In this document: in pieces, positions 24,525 to 29,963 of the stretch
Layout: the number at the start of each line of letters is the position of its first letter
Position numbering within the stretch: position 1 is the first letter of the stretch
From: Sulfurovaceae bacterium
Lineage (GTDB): Bacteria; Campylobacterota; Campylobacteria; Campylobacterales; Sulfurovaceae
DNA: 64,000 nt
Direction: 5' to 3'
NCBI GenBank assembly: GCA_028714675.1
Contig: JAQTLV010000006.1
Coordinates: 1 to 64,000, forward strand
Program-made: the position numbers and the translations under genes
The notes under the pieces: model-generated
The model's input: only the letters and a program-made list of their open reading frames with translations
Told to the model about the DNA's origin: nothing
The model's database searches: none

Positions 24525-24656
24525 TCTTTATCGCGATTTTGCACAATCTTCGCTCGAAACTTTCGAGTTTCGCTCGGGCACTTACTAAGTGTAAGTTTCT
24601 TCGCTCCACTTAAAATTTTCAAGCAAATCTCATACAAACTTACGATAAATTTATTT
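24525..24656. other. Hairpin-rich spacer between thiG and the histone-like gene
   Basis: 132 bases between converging genes. It contains CTCGAAA-C-TTTCGAG (24553-24567) and other short inverted repeats in a GC-richer patch. No open frame stands out. It may terminate both genes. Confidence 0.4.
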
Positions 24657-24857
24657 TTACGCTGCTTTTTTGATAGTTTTTTTAGCTACTTTTTTAGCAA
24701 CTTTTTTCGTTTTTGGTTTTTTGGCAGAAACTACTTTTGTTACTTTTTTTGTTAAAGATTTAGAATCTTTTTTCTTGATTACATCTTTTTTTACTGCTTT
24801 TTTCACGGCTTTTGTTGCAACTTTTTTAACTACTTTTTTCTTTAATTCTTTTGCCAT
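24657..24857 (-). CDS. Histone H1-like lysine/alanine-rich protein
   Basis: 66 residues, nearly half lysine, in repeated KK(V/A)(A/V)KK and KKV.KK patterns, with alanine, valine and threonine making up most of the rest. This resembles the C-terminal tails of histone H1 and bacterial H1-like nucleoid proteins. It should bind DNA or RNA through charge. GAGGAAATCAA precedes the ATG, which favours this strand over the equally long frame on the other strand. The simple repeated coding sequence on the plus strand reads as a phenylalanine/threonine-rich ORF and is a shadow. Single gene. Confidence 0.75.
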   Translation of the reverse strand: MAKELKKKVVKKVATKAVKKAVKKDVIKKKDSKSLTKKVTKVVSAKKPKTKKVAKKVAKKTIKKAA

Positions 24858-25010
24858 TTGATTTCCTCAATCATTTATTTTTATTGCCAACGAGCAATAA
24901 ATTATATAAACTATATGACTTTTTTGTTATTTTGTCAAGTTTGGTGGTAAAAACAATAGAATAGGATAAAATTATAAAATCATTTTGTGAAGAAAATATA
25001 AGGAGAGATA

Positions 25011-25580
25011 ATGTCACAAGCTATACCAGGTGGAGGGTTGCCAAAGTTTGAACGATTTTTTATAAAGACATTTATCATTCCCATGACCAAATACATTTTT
25101 ACTTGGGATTTGGCTTTGAAATTTTTCAATAAAGAAGCAAAAAAAATTGAAAAAATTGTAACACAAATAAAGAGAGAAGATTTGCAAAAACGCGTCAAGA
25201 TAGGACGTGTATTTGGCATCGAGGAACATAGTAGAGACTACTCTATCAATATGACGCTAGAGCATCTTGTCATAGCAGGAACAGGCGTGATGGGGATCAT
25301 ACATAAACTTTCGCAAGAGAAAATATTTACCAAAGAGGTGACTATCCAAGGGGTAAAACCGCACGCCAATGAGGCTGATACACTAGAGGAATTTGTAAAG
25401 CTTGCAGAAAAATATACTGCGTTCATCGATGCTCTGCCAAAGAAAAAATCGCTCATGAGACACCAACATCCGTGGTTTGTTGAGTTTAACAACTTTGAAT
25501 GGAGTGTTTTTATGTTTATCCATACATTTGTACACAGAAGACAGATTGAAGCAATAGCCAAGATACTTAGAGATGAGTAG
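25011..25580 (+). CDS. DinB-like (DUF1569-type) putative metal-dependent protein
   Basis: 189 residues, soluble, mainly helical. Three histidines match the DinB/YfiT metal site: H85 in TLEHLVIAG, and H171 and H175 in FIHTFVHRRQ near the C terminus. DinB-superfamily proteins are four-helix bundles, several of which act as thiol transferases or hydrolases; the substrate here is unknown. AAGGAGAG gives a strong ribosome site before the ATG. It starts the accessory stretch and is followed directly by ORF6N remnants. Confidence 0.7.
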   Translation: MSQAIPGGGLPKFERFFIKTFIIPMTKYIFTWDLALKFFNKEAKKIEKIVTQIKREDLQKRVKIGRVFGIEEHSRDYSINMTLEHLVIAGTGVMGIIHKLSQEKIFTKEVTIQGVKPHANEADTLEEFVKLAEKYTAFIDALPKKKSLMRHQHPWFVEFNNFEWSVFMFIHTFVHRRQIEAIAKILRDE

Positions 25581-25591
25581 GATTAGCGATA

Positions 25592-25639
25592 GTTAAAAAA
25601 GAGTTTGAAAACTTGAGGTCGCAAATTGCGACCAGTTAA
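25592..25639 (+). pseudogene. ORF6N-domain gene remnant, fragment 1
   Basis: The frame reads VKKEFENLRSQIATS and then stops. (E)NLRSQIATS is the recognisable core of ORF6N/KilA-N-type DNA-binding proteins found in phages and accessory islands, where it is normally followed by a GG-rich YAFTEQG segment. There is no plausible start or downstream domain. The same DNA forms a palindrome (GGTCGCAA with TTGCGACC), which is explained by the codons. Confidence 0.6.
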
Positions 25640-25661
25640 ATAATACAAAACTACACACCTC

Positions 25662-25686
25662 GTCATTCCTGCGAAGGCAGGAATCT
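25662..25686 (+). repeat. REP-like 25-bp hairpin element, copy 2
   Basis: ATTCCTGC and GCAGGAAT form an 8-bp stem. It matches the element at 18965-18989 in inverse orientation with three differences, and sits between the two ORF6N remnants. Confidence 0.75.
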
Positions 25687-25721
25687 AGCATTGACTTTAA
25701 ACAAATTTCAAATTAGTTTAT

Positions 25722-25838
25722 AAAAACTTGAGGTGCCAATTTGTCACCTCAAATCATAGTGGCATCAGATATGCACTCACTTATGATGAGTTAGCCAAAA
25801 AGAAAGTAGAGTGGGTTGAAAGTAGAGCTAAATTATAA
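25722..25838 (+). pseudogene. ORF6N-domain gene remnant, fragment 2
   Basis: The frame reads KNLRCQFVTSNHSGIRYAL, then TYDELAKKKVEWVESRAKL and a stop. The first part is again the ORF6N core (NLR.QFVTS), but the expected YAFTEQGVAML stretch is missing, so the gene carries an internal deletion as well as a lost 5' end. This fragment is a diverged paralogue of fragment 1. The remaining bases 25839-25939 hold no gene, only an AT-rich presumed promoter for gajA (TATTAT at 25906-25911). Confidence 0.6.
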
Positions 25839-25939
25839 TAATTTTCCTTTATGCCTAATTTTATACTGATTCATTAAAATCCTATGAAATATGCAAAAAA
25901 ATTGATATTATTATCAGAATGTATATTTATGGGGGATAA

Positions 25940-27568
25940 ATGAAAATAAAAAAAGTATATATTGAAAATTTTAAAAATTTTAAAAAGCTAGAGCTTGATT
26001 TGGATAGCGGCATCAATATTCTTGTTGGCAATAATGAAGCAGGAAAATCAACTATTTTAGAAGCTATTCATTTGGCACTTACAGGATTGTTTAATGGCAA
26101 ATATTTAAAGAATGACTTAACAGAGTATTTATTTAATGTTGATTGTATTAAAGATTATTTAGTGAATCCAGAAACTTTGCCTTATATACTTATTGAAATA
26201 TTTTTTGAAGATGGAAGCCATCCAATATTTGAAGGTACTCTGAATTATGAAAAAAAAGATAAAGAAAGCGGTGTTTCATTTAAAATAGCATTTGATGAAA
26301 AATATCAAAATGAATATAATGAACTTTTAAAAGATAAAGAGAGTATAAAAACACTACCCATAGAATATTATGAAGTATTTTGGTCTTCATTTGCACGAGA
26401 CAGTATTACTTCGAGAAGTATTCCTATTAAGTCGGCCTTTATTGACTCTTCCTCTAATCGTTTCCAGAATGGCTCTGATGTTTATTTGTCGAGAATTATT
26501 AGAGAAAATTTAGATGAAAATGATTTAGTAAAAATTTCTCAAGCTCATAGGAAAATGAGAGATGCATTTATGGAAGATGAAAGCATCCAAGCAATTAATT
26601 CAAAAGTCAAAACTCATTCAACTCTAACAGCAAAAGAGTTGGCATTATCTGTAGAACTAGTTTCAAAAAATGCTTGGGAAAGTAGTTTGATGACATATTT
26701 TGATGATATCCCATTTCATTATATTGGCAAAGGGGAGCAGTGTATTATCAAAACCGATCTAGCATTAAGTCATAAAAAAAGTAAAGAATCAAATTTACTT
26801 TTAATCGAAGAACCAGAAAATCATCTAAGTCACACTAAGCTAAATGCCTTAATCAATAAAATTAAAACTGGAAATGAAGACAAGCAAATTATCATATCAA
26901 CTCATAGCAGTTTTGTAGCCAATAAGCTAGGCTTGGAACATTTGATTTTTTTACATGATAAAAAGACCACACAGCTTAATGAATTATCACCTGACACGCA
27001 AAAGTTTTTTGAAAAAATAGCTGGTTATGATACTTTGAGATTGATTTTATGTAAAAAAGCGATACTGGTCGAGGGTGATTCCGATGAACTTGTAATTCAA
27101 AAAGCCTACATACTTCAAAATGCTGGAAAGCTACCTATTGAGGATGAAATAGATGTTATTTCTGTTGGTATTGCATTTAAGAGATTTTTAGAAATTGCAG
27201 AAAAGATAAATAAAGAAGTTGTTGTGGTAACGGATACTGATGGGGATATTCAAAAAAATATTAATGATAAATATACAGATTATTTGGGGAAAAATGCAAA
27301 ACCAAATATTAAAATTTGCTTCGATGCTACTGTTGATACTGGAGATTTGATGATTGGCAAAAAACCTTATAACTACAATACACTAGAGCCAAAGATTTTA
27401 AAATCTAATAGTTTAGCAAAACTAAATACGATTTTTGGGACATCATACATTACAGAAGATGAATTAAGAAAATACATGAAAAGTCATAAAACCGAATGTG
27501 CTTTAAATATTTTTGATACAGAAGAAGAAATGGTTTTCCCCGACTACATTATAGAGGCTATAAAATAG
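25940..27568 (+). CDS. gajA: Gabija GajA-like OLD-family ATPase/TOPRIM endonuclease
   Basis: 542 residues. N-terminal ABC-type ATPase: Walker A GNNEAGKST (30-38), Walker B LLLIEEPENHLS (near 287) and the switch histidine in IISTHSS (near 319). C-terminal TOPRIM nuclease: ILVEGDSDELV (near 374) and VVVTDTDGD (near 428), with later acidic residues. This is the overcoming-lysogenization-defect architecture. Followed after one base by a UvrD-like helicase, it matches class 2 OLD and the Gabija anti-phage pair, in which GajA is a nucleotide-regulated DNA nuclease. GGGGG precedes the ATG. Length is close to the described GajA (about 580). Assignment rests on domain order and partner; another OLD system is possible. 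Confidence 0.85.
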   Translation: MKIKKVYIENFKNFKKLELDLDSGINILVGNNEAGKSTILEAIHLALTGLFNGKYLKNDLTEYLFNVDCIKDYLVNPETLPYILIEIFFEDGSHPIFEGTLNYEKKDKESGVSFKIAFDEKYQNEYNELLKDKESIKTLPIEYYEVFWSSFARDSITSRSIPIKSAFIDSSSNRFQNGSDVYLSRIIRENLDENDLVKISQAHRKMRDAFMEDESIQAINSKVKTHSTLTAKELALSVELVSKNAWESSLMTYFDDIPFHYIGKGEQCIIKTDLALSHKKSKESNLLLIEEPENHLSHTKLNALINKIKTGNEDKQIIISTHSSFVANKLGLEHLIFLHDKKTTQLNELSPDTQKFFEKIAGYDTLRLILCKKAILVEGDSDELVIQKAYILQNAGKLPIEDEIDVISVGIAFKRFLEIAEKINKEVVVVTDTDGDIQKNINDKYTDYLGKNAKPNIKICFDATVDTGDLMIGKKPYNYNTLEPKILKSNSLAKLNTIFGTSYITEDELRKYMKSHKTECALNIFDTEEEMVFPDYIIEAIK

Positions 27569-27569
27569 T

Positions 27570-28688
27570 ATGAGCAAAATTAATAAACTTATCATTGCTG
27601 CTGCTGGAGCTGGCAAAACCACATATTTAATAAAAGAAGCTTTAAAGCAAGATAAAGAAGTATTAATCACAACTTACACAGAAGCAAATGAAAGCGAGAT
27701 AAAAAAGAAGTTTATAGAAATAAACGGCGCAATCCCAAAAAATGTAACTATTCAAACTTGGTTTTCAATGTTATTACAACATGGAGTAAAGCCATATCAA
27801 GACTATCTAACTGATAAAAAAATTAATGGAATGTTGTTGGTAAATGAACAATCAGGTTTGAAATTTAGAGGAAAATTCCCTGTTTACTACAAAGAGGAAG
27901 AAGTTGATAAGCATTATTTTTCCAAAGAATATAAAATTTATTCTGATAAATTGTCAAAATTTGTTTTCAAATGCAATGAAAAAAGTAGTGGTGCTGTTTT
28001 TGATAGATTGAGTCGAATCTATGATTGTATTTTTATAGATGAAGTTCAGGATTTAGCAGGATATGATTTAGAGTTGATAAAGCTTTTATTTCAAAGTAAT
28101 TCAAATATTATATTGGTCGGTGATCCTAGGCAAGTGACTTATTTAACACATAGTGAAAATAAATATACGAAATATAGAGATGGAAAGATTAGAGAGTTTA
28201 TTCAAAATGAATGTAAAAAAGTTGTAGTTGAAATTGATGAAGAAAGTTTGAATTGTAGTTATAGAAATAATGAGTTAATTTGTCAATTTTCTTCTAAATT
28301 ATTTCCTGATTATGTAGTTTCTACATCAAATCAGAATGATGAAGTAGAACACAAAGGAATCTTCTTAATTAAAGAAAATGATGTTGATGCTTATTTGGAA
28401 CAATTCAACCCAATTCAATTAAGAGCAAATAGAAGTAGAGCGGTAAATAATGATTATATAGCTATGAATTTTGGAGAGTCAAAAGGTTTGGGATTTGATA
28501 GAGTTATGATTTATCCGACTCAACCTATATTGGACTTTATTTTGAAGAATAAAAATCTTGATGGTACAAGTCGTGCAAAATTTTATGTTGCTGTTACAAG
28601 AGCAAAACATAGTGTTGGCATAGTTTATGATTTTAAAGATAGTGATATTGTTGAAAATATCCAAAAATGGAAAAAAGTAGAGAATTAA
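27570..28688 (+). CDS. gajB: Gabija GajB-like UvrD-family helicase (compact)
   Basis: 372 residues. Superfamily 1 helicase motifs in order: Walker A AAAGAGKTT (10-18), Walker B/II IFIDEVQDLAG (near 154), motif III VGDPRQVTY (near 184), motif IV-like NCSYRNN, motif V ESKGLGFDRV, and motif VI FYVAVTRAKHS (near 338). The protein is clearly shorter than the Bacillus GajB (about 490) and far shorter than UvrD (about 700), so the accessory B domains must be minimal. In Gabija, GajB senses DNA ends and partners GajA. It starts one base after gajA and is probably co-translated with it. Confidence 0.83.
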   Translation: MSKINKLIIAAAGAGKTTYLIKEALKQDKEVLITTYTEANESEIKKKFIEINGAIPKNVTIQTWFSMLLQHGVKPYQDYLTDKKINGMLLVNEQSGLKFRGKFPVYYKEEEVDKHYFSKEYKIYSDKLSKFVFKCNEKSSGAVFDRLSRIYDCIFIDEVQDLAGYDLELIKLLFQSNSNIILVGDPRQVTYLTHSENKYTKYRDGKIREFIQNECKKVVVEIDEESLNCSYRNNELICQFSSKLFPDYVVSTSNQNDEVEHKGIFLIKENDVDAYLEQFNPIQLRANRSRAVNNDYIAMNFGESKGLGFDRVMIYPTQPILDFILKNKNLDGTSRAKFYVAVTRAKHSVGIVYDFKDSDIVENIQKWKKVEN

Positions 28689-28690
28689 CC

Positions 28691-28777
28691 ATGTCTAACC
28701 AAACCACCATTCAATGCCCAGAATGCGGCACACAAATTGACGCAACAAACATCCAATATTCACATCAATCTAAGTGA
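28691..28777 (+). pseudogene. Truncated DUF2130-family gene (N-terminal stub)
   Basis: Begins two bases after gajB and reads MSNQTTIQCPECGTQID, then eleven more residues and a stop: 28 codons in all. The zinc-ribbon start (CPECG..ID) is the N terminus of DUF2130 proteins, which normally continue for about 400 residues as coiled coil plus nuclease-like domain. Everything after the first 28 codons is lost. It could be translated as a peptide but is most simply a relic. Confidence 0.6.
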
Positions 28778-28822
28778 CTTTTAGTAAGATTCTAAAAACC
28801 AAAATATAAACTCACACTATGC

Positions 28823-28828
28823 TATAAT
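28823..28828 (+). promoter_or_regulatory. -10 element for the CAP-domain gene
   Basis: TATAAT in the context CTATGCTATAATGACAC. The 24 bases from here recur at 29423-29446 with one change. Confidence 0.6.
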
Positions 28829-28845
28829 GACACAATTTAAAAAAG

Positions 28846-29382
28846 ATGATAAAGATGGCATACAAAAGCAGATTAATATTTTTATTGATATTTATTTTAT
28901 TTAATATTCACAGTTATGCACTTAGCGTGCAAGAGCAAGTCGAAATATTGACAGCACACAACAAAGTACGCAATAAGCTTAATTTGCCAAATCTAAAATG
29001 GTCCAAATCTTTGGAATATAAAGCAACCAATTGGGTAAATACTCTTAGCGTTAAGTATGAATGTAAAATGTTTCATAGCCATATGCCAAATTTAGGAGAA
29101 AATTTATATTGGGCTGGTCCACTTTCTTATTCAAATGGAAAAAAAGAAATACAGCCCATTCGTCCTTTTGATGTAGTTTCGGCATGGAGTTCTGAGGAGC
29201 CTTATTATGATTATAATGCAAATCGTTGTATAAGTGGCAAGGTATGCGGTCATTATACACAACTGATATGGAAAGATACTACCGAGGTTGGATGCGCAAA
29301 AGTAATCTGTTATGACAAATCTCAAATTTGGTCATGCAACTACAATCCGCCTGGTAATTATATAAACCAAAAACCATATTGA
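28846..29382 (+). CDS. Secreted CAP (SCP/PR-1) domain protein
   Basis: 178 residues. A signal peptide covers roughly the first 25 residues (hydrophobic LIFLLIFILF), so the protein is exported. The CAP domain follows: a first helix with EILTAHNKVRNKLNLPNL, the motif GENLYW, the core CAP signature CGHYTQLIWKDTTEVGCAKV, and the C-terminal CNYNPPGNY. The CAP tetrad His/Glu positions appear conserved, and several cysteines could form disulfides. CAP proteins bind lipids or act in cell-surface interactions; the role in bacteria is mostly unknown. ATG at 28846 was used; 28855 is an in-frame alternative. Gene order and isolated promoter suggest it was acquired with the accessory block. Confidence 0.88.
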   Translation: MIKMAYKSRLIFLLIFILFNIHSYALSVQEQVEILTAHNKVRNKLNLPNLKWSKSLEYKATNWVNTLSVKYECKMFHSHMPNLGENLYWAGPLSYSNGKKEIQPIRPFDVVSAWSSEEPYYDYNANRCISGKVCGHYTQLIWKDTTEVGCAKVICYDKSQIWSCNYNPPGNYINQKPY

Positions 29383-29422
29383 TATTGATATGGCAATAAT
29401 GCAAAATTGTAAGTATATTTTG

Positions 29423-29428
29423 TATAAT
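29423..29428 (+). promoter_or_regulatory. -10 element for aroK
   Basis: TATAAT followed by the same GACACAATT(C)AAAAAAGA leader seen before the CAP gene. Confidence 0.55.
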
Positions 29429-29453
29429 GACACAATTCAAAAAAGAGTAAAAA

Positions 29454-29963
29454 ATGGATAAAAATATAATTTTGATAGGTTTTATGGGTGTAGGCAAAGG
29501 TACAATCGCAAGAGCGTACGCAAAAGCATACGGTGTGTATAACATAGATACAGATGATCTCATAGTATCAAAAGTCAAAAAAGAAGTAAAAAAGATATTT
29601 GAACAATACGGCGAAGAGCGTTTTAGAGCATTGGAACAAGAGACTGCTAATTGGATAGAAGCAGATGTCAAAGGTACTCTTATCAGTTGTGGCGGTGGAT
29701 TTTACAAAGTAAATAACCTCAAAAATTTAGGAACGGTTGTTCTGCTCGATGCTTCATTTGAATGGATACATAAAAGACTTAAAAATGCCAAAAATTCAAA
29801 AGCCAAATTAGCCAAAAGACCACTCTTTGCCAAAGAAAAAGAGGCGAAAAAACTTTACAATGAGAGAGCAGAGATATATAGACAAGTAGCCGATGTAATC
29901 ATAAATGTAGAAAAACTAAGTACCAAAGAGATAGTAGAACAAATCAACAAAGTTGCAATATAA
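29454..29963 (+). CDS. aroK: Shikimate kinase
   Basis: Phosphorylates shikimate at the 3-hydroxyl in aromatic amino-acid synthesis. 169 residues. The P-loop reads GFMGVGKGT, with Gly-Thr in place of the more usual Ser/Thr pair. Shikimate contacts are DTDD (about residues 32-35), the Arg in ERFRALE and the glycine triplet in SCGGGFY. The lid region holds KRPLF, and the C-terminal adenine-binding arginine is in ERAEIYRQVAD. A purine-rich AAAAAAGAG precedes the ATG. Single gene; other aro genes are not adjacent. Confidence 0.93.
   Translation: MDKNIILIGFMGVGKGTIARAYAKAYGVYNIDTDDLIVSKVKKEVKKIFEQYGEERFRALEQETANWIEADVKGTLISCGGGFYKVNNLKNLGTVVLLDASFEWIHKRLKNAKNSKAKLAKRPLFAKEKEAKKLYNERAEIYRQVADVIINVEKLSTKEIVEQINKVAI

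Follow-up and report, generated by a model that had tools for sequence, protein, structure and literature searches.

The window, a 64,000-nucleotide stretch of contig JAQTLV010000006.1 from a Sulfurovaceae bacterium (assembly GCA_028714675.1), carries two adjacent genes, gajA and gajB, in the interval between the core genes thiG and aroK. The core neighbours were identified through alignment to congeners. The features of the interval, in window positions, are as follows.

24651–29431, no strand: variable part of the thiG–aroK interval, defined against the near-empty site of congener G421 (∼0.26 kb there)
25560–25811, plus strand: ORF6N gene fragments with no open frame (25560–25603, 25606–25633, 25720–25752 and 25767–25811; blastn)
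25661–25685, no strand: palindromic dispersed repeat CGTCATTCCTGCGAAGGCAGGAATC, with 11 genome copies at ≤2 mismatches
25818–25850, plus strand: segment shared with congener G364 (94%), where it lies upstream of a truncated long-form gajB
25940–27568, plus strand: gajA, OLD-family ABC ATPase and TOPRIM nuclease, 542 residues (PADLOC, Pfam, AlphaFold2 model)
27570–28688, plus strand: gajB, compact SF1 UvrD-like ATPase/helicase, 372 residues, predicted to lack the 2B subdomain (PADLOC, profile against the PDB)
28691–28777, plus strand: 28-codon relict of a DUF2130 gene, MSNQTTIQCPECGTQIDATNIQYSHQSK* (sequence, alignment)

Both gaj frames are intact and on the plus strand, separated by a single base (27569), and an RBS-like GGGGGAT is found 5′ of gajA. 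GajA matches the PADLOC model PDLC00102 over its full length (702 bits, residues 1–542), with 533 bits for a second GajA model, PDLC00098, and at most 129 bits for the remaining ones; GajB matches PDLC00148 end to end (478 bits, residues 5–369). Pfam places an AAA_15 domain (ABC ATPase) in the N-terminal part of GajA, OLD-like_TOPRIM in its C-terminal part, and UvrD-helicase in GajB. The full-length matches to both PADLOC families confirm the initial annotation, which had proposed a Gabija-type pair in the standard order, one base apart. We conclude that the locus is very likely a Gabija (class 2 OLD plus UvrD-like) defence operon of the compact clade.

Three other systems were considered and rejected. 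PARIS is ruled out by the score of its AriA model, only 81 bits compared with 702 for GajA, and a P2-type solitary OLD (class 1, single gene) by the presence of gajB one base downstream and by the pairing of the two genes in 18 of 18 relatives. A retron (class 3 OLD) is ruled out because the neighbours are core genes, a DinB-like gene and a CAP gene, with no Rfam match; among the scanned neighbours neither a reverse transcriptase nor a non-coding RNA was found beside the OLD gene, and the Rfam scan of the window was empty.

An AlphaFold2 model of GajA, built from 21 homologues (pLDDT 84.8, pTM 0.77), finds Bacillus cereus GajA (BcGajA, PDB 8sm3) as its best Foldseek match in the PDB, with an E-value of 2.7e-18; the top four matches are all B. 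cereus GajA, followed by the class 1 OLD protein of T. scotoductus (TsOLD). The structural alignment with BcGajA shows about 15% identity, and at the level of sequence profiles TsOLD (9e-17) and BcGajA (9e-16) are not separated. The length of 542 residues falls between TsOLD (528) and BcGajA (578); a helical insert in TOPRIM makes class 2 proteins ∼50 residues longer than those of class 1. The TOPRIM residues Glu378, Asp432, Asp434, Glu483 and Lys517 are invariant in the 21 homologues, as are the Walker A and EEPE Walker B regions. Glu378, Asp432 and Asp434 align with the catalytic Glu379, Asp432 and Asp434 of BcGajA, and Lys517 is the presumed equivalent of BcGajA Lys541. Sequence and model together identify GajA as an ABC-ATPase/TOPRIM nuclease with the GajA fold and with its predicted metal-binding and Walker residues kept.

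GajB is only 372 residues long, yet its SF1 motifs are complete, as the initial annotation had stated: motif I (GAGKT, 13–17), II (DEVQD, 157–161), III (GDPRQ, 184–188), IV (YR, 231–232), V (SKG, 304–306) and VI (YVAVTR, 339–344). All are invariant or nearly so across 21 pairs. The shortness singled out in the annotation is real, but GajB proteins of this length have been catalogued before and are very common, and the specific difference, the lack of a 2B subdomain, had not been named. Single-sequence phmmer searches of the PDB matched only the P-loop or motif II. With a profile built from 21 GajB sequences of the compact type, B. cereus GajB (BcGajB) came first (2.4e-18), followed by PcrA (4.3e-17), Rep (4.1e-16) and UvrD (8.6e-15). 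Residues 3–277 of the compact protein align with BcGajB 12–270 and residues 295–360 with BcGajB 419–475, whereas BcGajB 271–418 is unmatched; similarly, in the UvrD alignment, residues 226–294 bridge UvrD 282–551. The 2B subdomain of BcGajB comprises residues 306–416 (PMC10822852). Since the profile spans BcGajB 270–419 with only residues 277–295, we conclude that compact GajB is predicted to keep subdomains 1A, 1B and 2A and to lack the whole of the regulatory 2B. A single-chain model of GajB from four close homologues reached a pLDDT of 33, and the assignment of the 2B loss is drawn from the profile alignment only. The 2B subdomain, which is inserted in 2A in four-subdomain SF1A helicases, plays no part in the PADLOC definition of Gabija.

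The compact form is widespread. The PADLOC models that describe it have 532–534 positions for GajA and 365–369 for GajB, and compact Gabija is therefore not new, the clade having already been catalogued. By tblastn, relatives of GajA occur in 1,728 plasmid records, mostly from Klebsiella and Escherichia, and relatives of GajB in 1,752; 1,107 of the 1,728 records are conjugative. The E. coli relative is present in 769 of 5,426 complete E. coli genomes, and 780 of its 790 places are plasmids. Compact copies were also seen in Bacillota, Actinomycetota, and Alpha- and Gammaproteobacteria, and gajA and gajB are co-inherited over at least four phyla; the plasmid relatives are paired too, mostly with overlapping genes. 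Among viral contigs a single GajB query gave no match and an alignment query gave 49 loci; gajA lies directly upstream of the gajB relative (340–403 residues) in 18 of 18 contigs, being split in one. In trees of both proteins that included P2 Old and three to four sequences of long Gabija as outgroups, the compact sequences form one group (support 96/98 for GajA and 100/100 for GajB) apart from these; because branches are long and outgroups few, we rely on this grouping only.

In Campylobacterota the system is rare, with a match in 3 of 397 sampled genomes including the window's own. The nearest copies are those of Aliarcobacter, Sulfurospirillum sp. and S. arcachonense, with GajA 86–90% identical. 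Defence genes neighbour the pair in relatives: a type III methyltransferase, AbiD and RhuM, and Shedu on an Agrobacterium plasmid. A broken copy is seen in Sulfurimonas KA11 (L005, 6001–6887), in which a large internal deletion has fused gajA residues 1–131 into gajB residues 204–353.

The site itself varies between close relatives. The window has ∼4.8 kb where G421 has ∼0.26 kb, and the thiG–aroK distance, ∼4.9 kb in the window, is 496, 899, 3239, 2505, 2494 and 5262 bp in six congeners. In the same loci the purN–thiG interval is constant by comparison (15–68 bp), and other neighbouring intervals are less variable. The congener intervals hold a 2′-5′ RNA ligase-like gene, a two-component pair, DUF2130, or ORF6N with DUF2130 and a long-subtype GajB. 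As these contents differ, and as the site is near-empty in G421, the comparison supports the exchange hotspot that had been suggested for the locus. The absence of an integrase or prophage was also borne out, the scanned neighbours containing neither an integrase nor a phage gene, and the pair as prophage cargo is ruled out on the same grounds; no tRNA or Rfam RNA was found in the window. The ORF6N fragments reported beside the pair were verified by blastn, matching in pieces, at 83–96% DNA identity, the intact ORF6N gene of congener G364 (L032, 4019–4573; Pfam ORF6N, 1.1e-37). The truncated long-form GajB in the G364 interval (L032, 7066–8625) scores 766 bits against PDLC00115 and lacks the Walker A part; a PDLC00115 search matched 0 of 298 Campylobacterota genomes, a zero that does not demonstrate absence.

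Several smaller features of the interval were observed. One copy of the palindromic repeat at 25661–25685 also occurs in the thiG–aroK interval of congener G251. At 28846–29379 and 29454–29960 of the window a CAP-family gene lies upstream of aroK, and in three congeners it lies downstream of aroK; the two genes of the window have similar promoter-like segments ahead of them. A short Lys/Ala-rich histone H1-like protein is encoded on the minus strand at 24657–24857, and is found also in G364 (L032, 4691–4933).

Silent-site comparisons bear on the origin of the pair. Between the window pair and copies in other families dS is 0.6–0.8, whereas for thiG, aroK and ispA, compared between the window and a congener, it is 1.1–1.4. 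The pair is thus closer at silent sites to other families than core genes are between congeners, and we conclude that it reached its variable chromosomal site by horizontal acquisition. The GC content is 28–29% for gajA and gajB and 34–41% for the surrounding core genes. Pairwise dN/dS values with relatives, 0.07–0.18, indicate that the pair is under purifying selection.

The DUF2130 stub had been taken as a border of the pair. The stub is there, but it is not an unrelated border gene: in two relatives (L002 and L003) gajB is directly followed by an intact DUF2130 gene whose start matches the stub, and the stub aligns with the L003 protein at 61.5% over 26 residues (tblastn), which identifies it as the relict of a third gene. 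In Campylobacterota, Gabija pairs of the short and of the long type repeatedly have DUF2130 as a neighbour. On the Aliarcobacter butzleri plasmid p63_DSM_105472 (L098, 6001–13266) a DUF2130 gene whose product is 75% identical stands one base before a long-form gajA-gajB, and genes for a type III methyltransferase and RhuM come next. This A. butzleri Gabija, although of another subtype, thus has the companions that accompany the compact pair in L002. Eight DUF2130 proteins share without exception a D-x(n)-E-x-K pattern (G-A/G-D ... Y-E-S/T-K), which suggests a putative PD-(D/E)XK nuclease. Of 27 copies examined on plasmids and viral contigs, none has DUF2130 nearby, and the compact copy of S. 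arcachonense also lacks it. DUF2130 is thus a regional companion; as an obligate component it is ruled out by its absence near every non-Campylobacterota copy examined.

A mechanism can be outlined by analogy with the Gabija systems studied in B. cereus and P. aeruginosa. Gabija is characterised by a GajA4:GajB4 complex. GajA would assemble, as a tetramer in B. cereus, and bind GajB through the retained 1A/1B face of the latter. In BcGajB the N-terminal region binds GajA and the C-terminal region does not (PMC10822852), so that loss of 2B should leave assembly intact. The GajA nuclease would be restrained by nucleotides at their normal levels, by host end-processing of DNA, or by both, the second as in the RecBCD-licensing model of Gabija (PMC12407980). 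On infection, depletion of nucleotides or the presence of phage DNA ends without RecBCD/AddAB would release GajA, which would then nick phage DNA or block it, while ATP hydrolysis by GajB would tune substrate choice. In the UvrD family 2B has an autoinhibitory role, and Rep is activated when 2B is removed (PMC13238157); a GajB motor without 2B should accordingly be gated by GajA alone, with no 2B rotation. B. cereus GajB by itself is reported not to unwind DNA. A larger proposal, which we regard as speculative and rather unlikely, sees compact Gabija as a branch with a mechanism of its own, GajA controlling a GajB free of 2B self-inhibition; in Campylobacterota it would form, or once have formed, a system of three genes together with DUF2130, the putative PD-(D/E)XK nuclease that also partners a quite different long-form Gabija.

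Other roles for the pair have to be weighed against phage defence. Relatives are widespread on plasmids, many of them conjugative (1,107 of 1,728 records; 780 of 790 E. coli places), and compensation of plasmid cost has targeted a gene now predicted to be a Gabija component (PMC11637435). The pair might then use the Gabija mechanism chiefly to resist plasmids entering the cell, or rival mobile elements, rather than phages; however, anti-phage systems are equally expected on mobile elements and the window copy is chromosomal, and we consider this unlikely. A role in host DNA repair or recombination is very unlikely: some OLD ATPases serve non-defence functions, as archaeal Cran1 does (PMC12796447), and the S. 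arcachonense copy directly follows sbcD-sbcC-like genes, but the patchy distribution in Campylobacterota (3 of 397 genomes), horizontal transfer, frequency on plasmids and viral contigs, and defence-gene neighbours all argue against it.

Decay must also be considered, with DUF2130 reduced to 28 codons, ORF6N to fragments, and the Sulfurimonas copy broken by deletion. That the pair is a non-working relic after losing a third component is nevertheless very unlikely, as both frames are intact, DUF2130 is missing as well from S. arcachonense and all examined non-Campylobacterota copies, and comparisons with relatives show strong constraint, albeit as pairwise values that are not specific to the window branch. 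The pair is a genuine, horizontally acquired and probably functional Gabija system. No functional assay of a recognisable compact-clade member was found in the literature searched.

Gabija is among the commonest defence systems, and taken singly this locus is an ordinary one; what modest interest it has comes from the absent 2B and from DUF2130 as a recurrent companion. The way in which GajB assists GajA is unsettled, and a natural clade without 2B, on more than 1,700 sequenced plasmids, makes the role of this subdomain directly testable. As a recurrent neighbour, DUF2130 offers a concrete candidate for an accessory nuclease, and the thiG–aroK interval represents an additional defence exchange site in the genus.

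Compared with the compact Gabija of PADLOC (PDLC00102/PDLC00098 with PDLC00148/PDLC00140), the pair shows no substantive difference, lengths, order and full-length match being all alike. With the Gabija of B. cereus VD045 (GajA 578 and GajB 494 residues; PDB 8sm3, 8u7i) it shares the GajA fold, TOPRIM residues, gene order, GajB motifs and the GajA-binding 1A/1B region, but the window GajA is ∼36 residues shorter and GajB appears to lack 2B. Class 1 OLD proteins (P2 Old, T. scotoductus OLD) likewise combine an ABC ATPase and TOPRIM at similar size; their genes are solitary, whereas compact GajA always has a GajB partner. The pair annotated as 'AAA family ATPase / helicase UvrD' on Escherichia and Klebsiella IncF plasmids belongs to the same compact clade, with overlapping genes and a 340-residue GajB, but it lies beside vapBC and is only 25–30% identical to the window pair.
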